Assembly (NCBI GenBank): GCA_002841865.1
Contig: PHBD01000018.1
Span: 62,001-126,000 of the forward strand
Length of the DNA stretch: 64,000 bases
Direction of reading: 5' to 3'
DNA from: Deltaproteobacteria bacterium HGW-Deltaproteobacteria-19
GTDB taxonomy: Bacteria > Desulfobacterota > Syntrophia > Syntrophales > PHBD01
Below, piece by piece: positions 8,882 to 31,390 of the stretch. A program made the position numbers and the translations under genes. The notes under the pieces are model-generated. The model did no database searches, was not told where the DNA came from, and was given only the letters and a program-made list of their open reading frames with translations. Numbering within the stretch: position 1 is the stretch's first letter; the number at the start of each line of letters is the position of its first letter.

Positions 8882-9880
8882 GTGTTCGACGGAAAAATCA
8901 TTCGGGGGTATCGACATCAACCGGGATTTCATTGCGCATCCAGCGCCATCCGCAACGTCCTGGCCTTTCACGGCCTCAAGGTCAGCGAGCCTGCCGTCAT
9001 CGGCCTGGGACGAGGGCCGGGTTTCTCCTACCACGTCACCGATCAGCGCCCCTCCCGCCTGGTTCACATGCGCAACCTCAACCTGGAAGACAATTTCTTC
9101 CGCACCGTGGGTATGAAATTCCGGTGGCGGGAGACGGATAACGCCGCGGAGGCGACGGCCCACGCGAAGACGTCGGTGGACCGGGGCCTGCCGATCCTCG
9201 TTCAGACCGACATTATAGATCTTCCATACTTCAACACGGACCAGCACTTTCCCGGCCACGCCGTGGTCATCTGCGGCTACAGCGACGAAAAGCAGGAATT
9301 TTATGTCTCGGACACCCTCCATCCGGAGGCCCTGGCCGTGGCGATCCCGGACATGGAGCGGGCACGGACTTCCGTATTTCCACCGTTCGCCCTGCGGAAT
9401 CGGTCCTTTGTTCTTGAGGATCTTTCGGGATTCCACATCGACGAGGCCGTCGCGCGGGGCGCCGTCCGCCGGTGGGCCGGGGAGAACTTGAACGGCCTTC
9501 CGGAGCTGCCCGTGGCTTACGGCGTCCGGGCCCTGGAGGAGCTGATCGGGGATCTGTCCAACTGGAAGGAGGCGGCGGACTGGCAGTGGTCGGCGCGCTT
9601 CACCTACCAGATCATCGAGCGTCGGGGGACGGGGGGCGCCGGCTTCCGCACCCTCTACCGGCAGTTCCTGGAGGAAATGGAGGATGTGTATCCGTCGCTC
9701 CGGGACCTTCGATTCTCGCAGGATCTGGCGGTCATCGAAGGCCTTTACCACGACATGGCCTCGGCATTCCGACGGATCAGCGAAGGGGAGGCGCCGGACT
9801 TTTCCCCTGCCCTGCCGGTGCTCGAAAACATCCTGGAGCGGGAAACGGCTTTCTACCGGAAGGTTCTGCGTTCCCTCTGA
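8882..9880 (+). CDS. BtrH N-terminal / DUF4872 domain protein
   Basis: A 332-residue protein resembling the BtrH N-terminal plus DUF4872 family. BtrH is the acyltransferase that moves an acyl group from a carrier protein to an aminoglycoside in butirosin biosynthesis. The N-terminal half has a papain-like arrangement: FHCASSAIRNVLAFHG (nucleophile Cys near residue 18), then GHAVVICGYSD (His) and FYVSDT (Asp). The start is GTG, preceded by AGGAGGGGCGTC. It lies 21 bases before the Pat-like acyl-CoA synthetase, so both are probably co-transcribed. Acyl transfer or peptide-bond chemistry is likely; the real substrate cannot be read from the sequence. Confidence 0.8.
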   Translation: MFDGKIIRGYRHQPGFHCASSAIRNVLAFHGLKVSEPAVIGLGRGPGFSYHVTDQRPSRLVHMRNLNLEDNFFRTVGMKFRWRETDNAAEATAHAKTSVDRGLPILVQTDIIDLPYFNTDQHFPGHAVVICGYSDEKQEFYVSDTLHPEALAVAIPDMERARTSVFPPFALRNRSFVLEDLSGFHIDEAVARGAVRRWAGENLNGLPELPVAYGVRALEELIGDLSNWKEAADWQWSARFTYQIIERRGTGGAGFRTLYRQFLEEMEDVYPSLRDLRFSQDLAVIEGLYHDMASAFRRISEGEAPDFSPALPVLENILERETAFYRKVLRSL

Positions 9881-24549: not shown

Positions 24550-25265
24550 CGAAACGGGGAAACGGGAGGAACGGATTTCAAATCCGCTCCTCCTTCCTTT
24601 TTCTTCCCTCCCACTCCAAGTCGGATCGCCATTTCTTCTCTTTCAAGCATCGTGGCGCGGGGGCTGCCACGGGGGCTTCCGCCGTCGCGGCCTTTTTTTC
24701 CACGATCCCTCGTCGACGGCCAGGAAGGCTGGAGGGATGGAAAAAAAGTCCTAATTGCTCCTCTGGAAACCCCCGGTCGCGCCCCCACGAACATTGGTCG
24801 GGGAGGGGGGCTTCCCGTAGCGCGAATAGCGGCTTTTTCGGGGTACCCTGCCGTCGCAGCGCAGCGCCCGCAAAGTCATCTGTCTGAGCACCGTCCGGTG
24901 CGGAAAAAATAGGGACACTTCCCCATTTTTTTGATTCGGGAACAACGCACCTTGCCTGTTCGTAACGAAAGAATAGGGGGAGGTGTTATTTCAGGCCAAC
25001 GTTCGCGGGGGCGCGACCGGGGGTTCCCAGAGGAGCAATTGGAAAACGTTTCCGGACCCCAGGCTCTTCGGTTTCAGAAGGCGAAGAGCGGAAACGTTTT
25101 CGCGACGGCGGGAGCCCCCGTGGCAGCCCCCGTGTCGATGCGCTGAATGCAAAGGAAAGGGGGCCGGCCCGTCAGGAAAGAAAATAAAAAGAAGGAGGAG
25201 CGGATTTGAAATCCGTTCCTCCGCATCGTTCCCCGTGACGGTTCGTGCCCGCTCCCTTTCATCCT
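24550..25265. repeat. Composite inverted repeat built from two hairpin elements
   Basis: Outer arms 24565-24595 and 25192-25222 are perfect 31-bp inverted copies and each is itself nearly palindromic (GGATTTCAAATCC). Inside lie two inverted copies of a 140-base element, 24656-24797 and 24996-25134. Each copy has a G-rich block, a hairpin and a C-rich block, and its two blocks can pair with each other. The hairpins differ in sequence but both pair well: 24692-24711 with 24732-24748, and 25043-25054 with 25089-25100 (inner 25064-25070 with 25082-25088). About 200 bases between the copies hold nothing recognisable. No coding gene is supported here. It may be a MITE-like element or structured RNA. 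Confidence 0.75.
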
Positions 25266-25793
25266 TCAGAGTCCCTTCCTTTCGAACAGGCGGAAGACGC
25301 CGAGAAAGGCCGCGATCAGGACGACGATGACAATCCAGTGGTTGACGCCGAGAGCACCGGGGATTGTGATCTTGCCGAGGTTGCCCCAGGTCAGGACCGT
25401 CTCCTTGAGAAGCGGGAACGCCTCGGCGTAGAGACCTGCCCCGAGAACCATTCCCAGCAGGCCGAAAAGGCTGTCGTAGCGACCCTCGCCGAGGGCTGCC
25501 GATCCGGTGGTGGGGCAATAGCCGACAATGGCCCAGCCGATGCCGAAGATGAGCCCTCCCAGGATGTTCGCCCCCAGGATCGTCGCCTTGATGGAGAGTT
25601 TCGCCATCCCCAGGTCTACGAGCAGGTATATGCCCACCATGGCGACCAGGATGGCGCTCAGCATGAACTTCACGATGGTCATGTCCTTCAGGCGCATGGC
25701 CCCCAGCTGCTTGTCGTAGCGGATGACATGGGCCTTCTGCATGATAAACCCGAAGAGGATGCCCGTAACGGCTCCGGTCAACAGTTCGTTCAT
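25266..25793 (-). CDS. YeeE/YedE family half-transporter (second half)
   Basis: A 175-residue polytopic membrane protein of the YeeE/YedE (sulphur/selenium transport) family. It has about five hydrophobic segments and the family cysteine motif in GWAIVGYCPTTGSAALGEG. Full-length family members bring two such halves together in one chain or as gene pairs; here the partner half is the gene directly upstream, whose stop (after TGA readthrough) overlaps this ATG by 3 bases. Members import thiosulphate or related sulphur or selenium species. GGAGGTGAGCAGCG precedes the ATG. The cargo is inferred from the family only. Confidence 0.88.
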   Translation of the reverse strand: MNELLTGAVTGILFGFIMQKAHVIRYDKQLGAMRLKDMTIVKFMLSAILVAMVGIYLLVDLGMAKLSIKATILGANILGGLIFGIGWAIVGYCPTTGSAALGEGRYDSLFGLLGMVLGAGLYAEAFPLLKETVLTWGNLGKITIPGALGVNHWIVIVVLIAAFLGVFRLFERKGL

Positions 25794-26314
25794 CGCTGCT
25801 CACCTCCTCTGTACAGGATTCCTGCCACGATGATGCCGGCCAGGAAGAAGCAGATCAGGGATATGTAACCGCTGACGGCTACCTGAGCCAGACCGCTCAG
25901 GCCGTGGCCGCTGGGTCACCCGTCGGCGAGGCGCGCCCCGAACATCGCGACCGCCCCGCCGAAGAAGGCCACCGTCCAGCGCCGGGTGCGGGACGGCCCG
26001 AACCGTGCCTCCCACATGGGCGGCACCGGGACGGCACGCCTCTCCCCCGACAGGGAAGCCGACGCCAGGGAGCCGAAGAGAACGCCGAGAACGAACATTC
26101 CCTGCCAGTCCAGTTTGATTTTCTCCTTGATGAAGTACTCCATGCCGGCCACCTTTTCGGGTGCCGCGGCCTGCTCGACGAAGCCGGCGATGCGCACGAA
26201 CGTTGTCGAGGCCCCGAAGTACTTTCCCGTCAGGAAGACCGACAGGATCAGGAGCAGGCCGGCAACGGCGCCGGCGGCGTAGGGGGACCATGTCTTCTGC
26301 GTCAGGATGTTCAT
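25790..26314 (-). CDS. YeeE/YedE half-transporter with in-frame TGA (candidate selenoprotein)
   Basis: Read to the first TGA (25916-25918) this gene gives 132 residues ending GARLADG. Read through, it gives 174 residues: after the TGA the frame continues PSGHGLSGLAQVAVSGYISL with a final membrane helix and stops at 25790-25792, overlapping the ATG of the partner half. In YeeE/YedE proteins this place holds the invariant cysteine of the GCxSGHGxSG motif, so TGA stands exactly where Cys is expected. A SECIS-like hairpin follows at the right distance (separate entry). GGAGG lies about 10 bases before the start. Hydrophobic helices are near 11-30, 73-90 and 112-130. The alternative is a TGC-to-TGA mutation or error. 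Confidence 0.8.
25875..25918 (-). promoter_or_regulatory. Candidate bacterial SECIS element after in-frame TGA
   Basis: On the minus strand, 21 bases follow TGA (25918-25916) before a 6-base loop GGUCUG closed by a perfect 7-bp stem CCUGAGC/GCUCAGG (25901-25882). A 4-bp lower stem ACGG/CCGU is set off by a UAG bulge. The loop resembles the GGUCU apical loop of E. coli fdhF, and the spacing and stem length fit the accepted bacterial SECIS pattern. It would recruit SelB with Sec-tRNA. A fold this size can also arise by chance in GC-rich DNA. Confidence 0.65.
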
Positions 26315-26620
26315 GTTCCGTTCACCTCCATTTCTTTTTTTCTCCGGCTGATGGACAGCAGCCGGATCGGTCTCGGATTTGGCTCAGTGGACGGGAGTGG
26401 AAGGAAACAACGCGGTTCGCTCGCTTGGTGCTTCATGGTAAGCGAAGCGTTCATCGCGTGTCAACCGCGCAATGAAGCTTCAAATAGAGCTTTGTCCCAG
26501 GGGATCCTTGTGGCATAAAAGACCTGTCCATTCGGCAGTCCGGCCCGGCGGCCTGTCAGGGTTTATTCATTCCTGTTCGGTTTCAGAATCTGTTCCACTT
26601 CGCCAAAAGGAGGGAAGAGC
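26315..26620. other. Intergenic region between divergent genes
   Basis: About 306 bases between the minus-strand YeeE pair and the plus-strand acyl-CoA ligase. It must hold promoters for both directions. No clear hairpin, coding frame or consensus promoter was picked out. Confidence 0.4.
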
Positions 26621-29707: not shown

Positions 29708-31390
29708 TCAGTTCACGGCCCGGCTCCATCTCGCCATGACGATGTCGGGGACGTCCCATCCCTTCTGCTCCATGAGCCCGATGAAGGCCCGGCGGTAAAG
29801 GAGCGTGACGGTGACCGTGGCCCTGCCCTTTGACGGCGGGTTGAACGCAAAGGACGACGCATCGCGGGCGAAGGCGGCCAGCCGGTTGTCGCTGACGAGA
29901 TCGGTGTGCTTCCAGTAGGCCGAGGCGGGAACGACCTCCGTCCATCTCTCCTTGAGCAGCTTCGCGTACGCCTTGCCGGGCCTCCCTCCGTAGTGCCCCT
30001 GCCTTCCCTTTGCCTGCCCACACCATTCCGGAAGGACCGCTCCGTCCACCTGACGGAGGGGTTTCCCCCGCCTGTCCCGGGCCTCCACCAGGAGGATCAG
30101 GTGCCGGAGGGGAGTGTCCGTGGGGACGTGGTGCCCCGTCCGGTCGTTGTGCAGCTCCACCGTTACGGCGAGCCGTCCGTCTTTCCTCCGCGCCGCGGCG
30201 CTCATGGAGAGGGAGTTGCGAAGGATCTCCGGGCCGACGGTCATGTTGTGGCTGTGAATCGCGTCCGGATCGCGGTCGATGCCGCCCTTCCCGGGCGCCA
30301 CGTTGGTCAGGGCCTTTCCCTTGTGGATCGCCGGGGAGGGCATGTGGCACTCCTGGCAGGTTTTCGCCCGGCCCGATTTCGGATCGGCGTAGGGGCTCTT
30401 CAGCCATTCCCCGTAGGAGTTGTAGACCACCGTATCCCAGAAGACGCCGAAGTGGCAGGGGGCGCAGTAGCGGCTTTCCTTGAGCAGCGGCAGGTTCGTG
30501 TCCTCTTCTGGGACGTTGTCGTCCTCGAAGGTGCCGAAGAAGAGCTGCGGCCGGTCCGGATCGTTTGTGAAGGGCCGGCGGACGGACATGGCGCGGACGC
30601 CCGGGACGTCCCGGAAGGGCATCCGGGTGACCGGGTCCAGGTGGACGTCCGCGACCTTGTGGCAGAAGTCGCAGTGGACGCCGTACCGGTCGGCGCCGCG
30701 CACCGACCGGGGATCGATGTTTCCGGAGAGCGAGGTCCCCGGGACATGGCAGGCGGAGCAGTTTCCGGCTGTGTCCGGAAAGTCCTGGACAAAGCCCGGC
30801 CCGTAATACGGCCCGGCCGGATCGGGGCGCTGCGGGAGGAGGGACGTGTTCCAGGCGCCGGTTCCCGGTGCGTAGCGCGTGGGCGGGCTTTTGTTTCCCT
30901 TCGTGTCGGTGCCCGCGTACATGGTCAGGAAGCGCGGGTTCACGGCGGATTTCAGGTGCGCGTCCTCGAGGCTCATGGCGATGAGGGACGCGTTGTGGCA
31001 GGAGGAGCAGCCGTCCTTCCCCACCGGCGGGATCCACTCGTACTTCGCGTTGTCGTTGATCTGATAGCGGATCATCCGGATCCGGAGGCCTTCTCTCGGG
31101 GCCTTCACATCACGGGCAAGGGCGCAGTACCACCCGTCCTTCCAGGCGCTCACACGGACGGGCTTTCCGGCCGGCACATCCCGGATCGCAAAGCCGCCGG
31201 CGGCATCCGACACGACGAAGTCCTTCGCGCCCTGGATCCGGACGCGGACGCCGGCCACGGGACCCCGGCCGTCGCTGACGGTGCCGCTGATCCCGCCACC
31301 CGGTGCCGCCCCCGTTTCGCGCCCTCCCGGGCCCGGCAGGGCCAGGAAGATGAGAAGCAGAACAGGAACCAGAAACAAACGTTTGCTCAT
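29708..31390 (-). CDS. Exported pentahaem c-type cytochrome with carboxypeptidase-regulatory-like domain
   Basis: A 560-residue exported cytochrome. After a signal peptide (about 1-24) comes a carboxypeptidase-regulatory-like beta domain (about 33-107). Five haem-binding motifs follow: CSSCH (128-132), CSACH, CDFCH, CAPCH and CQECH. The C-terminal third (VTVELHNDRTGHHVPTD and on) is beta-rich and has no haem site. The start at 31390 is used because it makes a 4-base ATGA overlap with the upstream giant gene. It is third in an operon after a lipoprotein and a 1602-residue surface protein. It probably carries electrons in the periplasm or at the cell surface; the partner is unknown. Confidence 0.88.
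   Translation of the reverse strand: MSKRLFLVPVLLLIFLALPGPGGRETGAAPGGGISGTVSDGRGPVAGVRVRIQGAKDFVVSDAAGGFAIRDVPAGKPVRVSAWKDGWYCALARDVKAPREGLRIRMIRYQINDNAKYEWIPPVGKDGCSSCHNASLIAMSLEDAHLKSAVNPRFLTMYAGTDTKGNKSPPTRYAPGTGAWNTSLLPQRPDPAGPYYGPGFVQDFPDTAGNCSACHVPGTSLSGNIDPRSVRGADRYGVHCDFCHKVADVHLDPVTRMPFRDVPGVRAMSVRRPFTNDPDRPQLFFGTFEDDNVPEEDTNLPLLKESRYCAPCHFGVFWDTVVYNSYGEWLKSPYADPKSGRAKTCQECHMPSPAIHKGKALTNVAPGKGGIDRDPDAIHSHNMTVGPEILRNSLSMSAAARRKDGRLAVTVELHNDRTGHHVPTDTPLRHLILLVEARDRRGKPLRQVDGAVLPEWCGQAKGRQGHYGGRPGKAYAKLLKERWTEVVPASAYWKHTDLVSDNRLAAFARDASSFAFNPPSKGRATVTVTLLYRRAFIGLMEQKGWDVPDIVMARWSRAVN

Follow-up and report, generated by a model that had tools for sequence, protein, structure and literature searches.

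A predicted selenocysteine-containing YeeE/YedE half-transporter and its cysteine-containing partner in a Desulfobacterota genome

The window examined here, i.e. the whole 64,000-nucleotide stretch of contig PHBD01000018.1, contains a split transporter gene pair of the YeeE/YedE family, and in one of its members (half A) an in-frame UGA at codon 133 stands in place of the family's invariant cysteine. Selenocysteine (Sec) is almost certainly inserted at this codon, although the selenium content of the protein is deduced from sequence, and the interpretation of half A as a selenoprotein made in the original prediction is therefore supported. The explanation that we consider probable for the pair as a whole is that the selenoprotein half A and its partner, half B, would make up one channel importing reactive sulfur.

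Reading frame and selenocysteine machinery

Half A opens with an ATG at 26314 on the minus strand and runs for 132 codons to the TGA in question, which falls, as originally described, at the cysteine position of the YeeE/YedE motif (here G-U-P-S-G-H-G). Beyond it lie 41 sense codons (PSGHGLSGLAQVAVSGYISL...) and a terminal TGA at 25790-25792, which overlaps the half B ATG at 25791-25793 in the way that had been predicted (Table 1). The claim that this continuation carries family sequence also held: translated with TGA as Sec, half A matches Pfam Sulf_transp with an E value of 9.3e-21 over profile positions 171-309, a C-terminal-type half, and half B matches it with an E value of 9.2e-17 over positions 14-149, an N-terminal-type half, the scores of 75.1 and 62 bits both exceeding the gathering score of 27. 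On alignment with TsuA, half A covers residues 237-330 of the C-terminal half, placing Sec133 on Cys293, and half B covers residues 3-174 of the N-terminal half, placing Cys93 on Cys91 and Ile24 at the position of Cys22. Each half has one conserved chalcogen residue, Sec133 in A and Cys93 in B, and the GYCP motif of half B was seen again in the partner frames at other, related loci. As judged by alignment, the two genes form a half-transporter pair of the PmpA/PmpB (YedE1E2) type, half A being its C-terminal-type and half B its N-terminal-type member; we write 'PmpAB-type', and not PmpAB, because the two halves are 174 and 175 aa long against approximately 130.

The interval originally proposed, 25790-26314, stops at the half A stop codon and leaves half B (25266-25793) outside. 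The gene pair is flanked in the window by an AMP-binding acyl-CoA-synthetase-like gene and by a gene for an FMN/pyridine-nucleotide oxidoreductase of the old-yellow-enzyme/enoate-reductase kind. The intergenic region between the enoate-reductase-like gene and half B (24565-25222) holds a large imperfect inverted repeat with three nested arm pairs of 32-48 nt that are 88-97% complementary; its core (24640-24810) belongs to a dispersed repeat family with 45 genomic matches, some of which lie at contig ends.

Table 1. Positions in the window of the features of the half A/half B gene pair
Feature	Position	Strand	Remarks
Sec-containing YeeE/YedE half A (PmpA/YedE1 type), predicted	25790..26314	-	174 codons, Sec at 133; translation with TGA as Sec
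UGA read as selenocysteine, predicted	25916..25918	-	Equivalent of TsuA Cys293; 62 distinct homologues with TGA here, the others with TGC/TGT
SECIS-type hairpin, putative	25882..25901	-	7-bp stem CCTGAGC/GCTCAGG, loop GGUCUG, 14 nt past the UGA
Partner half B (PmpB/YedE2 type)	25266..25793	-	175 aa; ATGA overlap with half A
Half B Cys93 codon, GYCP motif	25515..25517	-	Equivalent of TsuA Cys91 by alignment
Half A ribosome-binding site GGAGGTG, predicted	26323..26329	-	From sequence
Half B ribosome-binding site AGGAGGTG, predicted	25801..25808	-	Within the 3' end of half A; from sequence

The source genome (3.98 Mb, 100% complete and 4.7% contaminated according to the genome table) was searched for the Sec machinery, as the original prediction had suggested, and yielded a tRNA-Sec with anticodon UCA together with matches to selA (611 bits), selB (374 bits) and selD (391 bits); the bacterial set of selA, selB, selC and selD is thus present in one genome. 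The selD gene (locus L018) itself has a single in-frame TGA in the active-site motif GUACKIGPGDL, so the genome has a second, well-known selenoprotein, SelD. Of the observations named beforehand as contrary to a Sec reading, such as a lack of this machinery, none that could be examined was made.

Among relatives, selA was detected in 60 of the 65 order-level matches (42 of 42 among good genomes) and scored above cut-off in 75 of the 80 phylum-level matches. As nearly all these genomes use Sec, the presence of selA is uninformative for discriminating genomes with the Sec form from those with a Cys form. Two phylum-level genomes rated 98-99% complete, G221 and G417, carry the TGA form and a full-length selB and gave no selA match, and a third with the TGA form, G303, has a selA fragment only; these cases may reflect metagenome assembly gaps or a divergent selA.

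Homologues, selection and the downstream hairpin

We compared half A with homologues collected from GTDB contigs and from genomes of the same order and phylum. TGA occupies exactly the codon-133 equivalent in 62 distinct half-A coding sequences and the other homologues have TGC or TGT at this codon, which is the outcome sought in the original prediction and the pattern, an in-frame UGA where homologues have Cys, by which bacterial selenoproteins are recognized. Genomes from many families of the phylum, and also from Synergistota, carry the Sec form, and a sister genome of the same genus (L055) has it in a protein 95% identical with half A. Because the TGA recurs in 62 homologues, L055 included, we can exclude a read error or a local pseudogene. 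The plasmid collection contained no Sec relative (its one match, from Fusobacteria, was 33% identical) and the phage collection gave no matches, and so no Sec relative either.

In a tree of 74 proteins, 12 of them Cys forms, the Sec/Cys label changes at least eight times, four of these changes being forced by supported branches. The TGC-encoded Cys forms L022/L056 and L020/L068 are nested among close Sec relatives and have the hairpin described below intact or nearly so, and the genomes carrying L056 and L068 retain selA and selB; these are apparently recent conversions of Sec into Cys in which the hairpin persists as a relic. A second half-A paralogue, 41-47% identical and without the TGA, accompanies the Sec form in genomes G109, G086, G088, G091 and G138, hinting at two subfamilies with different roles; the paralogue of G091 contains a TAG.

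The pN/pS of the Sec forms is 0.13-0.20 before the TGA and 0.11-0.17 after it, past the hairpin, and this low downstream value, like that upstream, indicates that the stretch past the TGA is translated. The original prediction had also described a hairpin 14 nt after the TGA with a 7-bp stem and a GGUCUG loop. This holds for the present gene, in which 25901-25895 pairs with 25888-25882 on the minus strand; family-wide, the stem has six pairs and starts 15 nt past the TGA, since some members lack the first pair. The apical loop has G as its first base, 21 nt past the UGA, as expected of a bacterial SECIS, and none of 200 dinucleotide shuffles of the 30 nt concerned folded as well (z −2.7).

The proposed check of the hairpin, made here across homologues, revealed it to be both conserved and constrained at synonymous sites. 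In the hairpin codons (+6 to +11) pS is 0.034 for close pairs of sequences and 0.130 for more distant pairs, whereas the corresponding values upstream are 0.29 and 0.66, those of the spacer 0.23 and 0.54 and those past the hairpin 0.21 and 0.65. Ser+7 is encoded by AGC in 61 of 62 Sec forms and Gly+8 by GGT or GGG in all 62; Gly+3, His+4 and Gly+5 are invariant as residues and vary freely in their codons. At the outer stem pair there is synonymous compensation, Leu CTG occurring with Gln CAG or TTG with CAA (46 CG, 8 UA and 3 GU pairs, with no mismatch), and a second hairpin subtype, with the loop GGUUC and one bulged base, follows the same pattern and includes one AGC/TCG to AGT/TCA compensation. 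Stem cells are paired in 168 of 168 cases in one subtype and 187 of 192 in the other. A test of the Leu/Gln codon pairs with phylogenetic correction had four to five independent contrasts, all agreeing or neutral, and no power; the approximately three independent compensatory events agree with the structure but are not significant alone once kinship is allowed for. The best explanation for these features is that the hairpin acts as a SECIS just downstream of the UGA, at which the SelB/tRNA-Sec machinery would insert Sec, the binding of SelB being putative.

No Rfam family matched in the window at the gathering threshold, and RF00031, the eukaryotic SECIS family, was uninformative, giving no signal in any control genome. 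Codon periodicity, used to look for TGA read-through frames elsewhere in the window, gave two further candidates, neither of which we judge to be a Sec site: on inspection, the TGA at 9878 looks like a junction of two genes and that at 30255 lies opposite a long open reading frame.

TGA is a stop codon in translation table 11, and half A might accordingly be a pseudogene or yield a truncated product of 132 aa. This is very improbable given the 62 homologues with TGA at the exact codon, the complete Sec machinery, the purifying selection downstream and the frozen synonymous sites of the hairpin, and truncation would remove a pore motif that is kept family-wide. Decoding of the UGA by a suppressor tRNA, through a reassigned code or by misincorporation of Cys, for which there is only the analogy with UGA-reassigning organisms, is scarcely credible, since TGA is also the terminal stop of half A in 81 of 90 loci, so that there is no code change, the homologues have Cys and not Trp or Gly at the site, the hairpin is selected only after the TGA of codon 133 and the genome has a tRNA-Sec. 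Insertion of Sec is thus the reading that we retain. As the terminal stop is usually TGA too, the SECIS is needed to tell the Sec codon from a stop, and plain table 11 gene calling cuts half A at 132 aa with loss of its functional motif.

Possible cargo and transport mechanism

By homology to PmpA/PmpB and YedE1E2, both halves would make one channel, to which half A would contribute Sec, at the pore position corresponding to TsuA Cys293, and half B the equivalent of Cys91. The selenolate and then the thiolate would pass reactive sulfur inwards, most likely zero-valent sulfur or polysulfide and possibly thiosulfate, and cytoplasmic low-molecular thiols would accept it as a persulfide, which in one clade an adjacent CoA-disulfide/persulfide-reductase-like enzyme would reduce. 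Heterodimer formation, substrate and direction of transport are proposed here by analogy with these relatives, as is the presumed role of Sec in transport. A Sec-Cys relay for reactive sulfur seems to us rather likely, and zero-valent sulfur as its specific cargo plausible, if not quite probable.

In 12 loci, at all of which half A is the Sec form, a flavin disulfide reductase gene lies directly 3' of half B. Eleven of the 12 enzymes constitute one orthologous family (L029, L031, L034, L035, L036, L037, L039, L045, L088, L092 and L101) that has a single-Cys motif, FISYGACSLPYY, and matches best, just below the cut-offs, to the NCBIfam CoA-disulfide reductase models, whereas that of L098 is no more than distantly related (35% identical). 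Persulfide reductases are known among enzymes of the CoA-disulfide-reductase type, and it is this gene that points to a Sec-Cys relay importing reactive (zero-valent) sulfur. The association is essentially limited to one clade, and the window has no CoA-disulfide-reductase-like neighbour. Taken together, the residue equivalence, the PmpAB/YedE1E2 precedents and the reductase make a selenolate-then-thiolate relay, with the sulfur reduced inside an anaerobe, the best-supported picture. An AlphaFold model of half A built with 23 sequences (pTM 0.44, with the motif disordered at a pLDDT below 50) was not used because it was weak and had no match in the PDB.

We also put forward, tentatively and as a possibility that we think more doubtful, a covalent, transmembrane Sec-Cys chalcogen relay specific to anaerobes, that is, a selenium-upgraded importer of zero-valent sulfur in which the selenolate would set the rate or direction of uptake and, in one clade, a persulfide reductase would stand at the exit. 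If true, selenocysteine would be required by the permeation path of the transporter itself.

The same selenoprotein might instead carry thiosulfate, as TsuA does. Thiosulfate is the cargo of TsuA and of its E. coli homologue, Sec133 and Cys93 fall on TsuA Cys293 and Cys91, and the NCBIfam TsuA models are the best matches, though weak ones; we nevertheless consider thiosulfate unlikely as the cargo, since these matches fall far under the TsuA equivalog cut-offs (46.4 against 400 bits for NF052577 and 27.5 against 645 for NF041049), half B has Ile24 where TsuA has its third cysteine, Cys22, the most frequent neighbouring gene families include no evident TusA/TsuB-like partner and the split architecture follows the PmpAB/YedE1E2 pattern. 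More improbable is a selenium transporter of the YedE/FdhT kind with Sec handling selenium species. Selenium use is associated with YedE (TIGR04112), whose archaeal form is split into two genes (PMC5322559), and nearly all the carrier genomes use selenium; on the other hand, the scores lie below cut-off (31.5 against 200 bits for TIGR04112 and 34.4 against 350 for NF033796), the loci read gave no conspicuous selD, SirA-like or Sec-lyase gene beside half A, and the clade includes Cys forms from genomes in which selA and selB are retained. Import of reactive sulfur remains the reading that we prefer.

Comparison with known systems

Most known selenoproteins are soluble redox enzymes and few are membrane transporters. 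The original prediction was unsure whether a Sec form of this family had been described, a doubt now superseded, as a predicted Sec-containing YeeE/YedE family with the motif GUxSG is on published lists of prokaryotic selenoproteins (PMC13188914 Table 1; PMC9312934). The main texts of PMC2398784 and PMC5029168, which the review cites as sources for this family, do not mention YeeE. The listed family shares with half A the Pfam family, the Sec motif and the placement of Sec at the invariant Cys, so our finding is not new in kind and is a member of a known, uncharacterized predicted selenoprotein family. The lists give one representative, without architecture, SECIS, distribution, partner or mechanism; new here are the half-transporter architecture, the correspondence of residues, the wide distribution, the constraint on the hairpin, the apparent nested Sec-to-Cys conversions and the link with a reductase in one clade.

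Spirochaeta thermophila TsuA/YeeE (PDB 6LEO, 6LEP, 8J4C and 8K1R) represents the fold family by sequence, and of its three relay cysteines two have a positional counterpart here. TsuA is a single chain with a third cysteine (Cys22) and a TsuB partner, whereas the present system has two chains, Sec in place of Cys293 and no equivalent of Cys22. The putative selenium transporters YedE/FdhT (TIGR04112 and NF033796) are distant homologues linked to selenium users, and archaeal YedE is also split, but the half-transporters score far below the corresponding cut-offs and no selenium-metabolism neighbours were seen.

The closest pattern is that of Serratia PmpA/PmpB and Cupriavidus pinatubonensis YedE1/YedE2, in which adjacent half-genes each encode an essential Cys at the Cys293 and Cys91 positions. 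In the published alignment, PmpB corresponds to the N-terminal half of TsuA, with Cys91, and PmpA to the C-terminal half, with Cys293, and a heterodimer has been proposed (PMC11582611); YedE1E2, the homologues of PmpAB, take up zero-valent sulfur with formation of glutathione persulfide, both halves being needed and either Cys-to-Ser change abolishing uptake (PMC10812762). Those halves have Cys, approximately 130 aa and four predicted helices each and, in aerobes, a persulfide dioxygenase beside them, whereas here there is a predicted Sec, the halves are 174-175 aa long and one clade has a CoA-disulfide/persulfide-reductase-like gene alongside. With a pore Sec, Cys homologues in the same clade and apparent natural conversions that keep the hairpin, this family offers a ready comparison of what selenium contributes to sulfur transport, and the Sec half-transporter may be the anaerobic counterpart of the aerobic yedE1E2-pdo zero-valent sulfur system.
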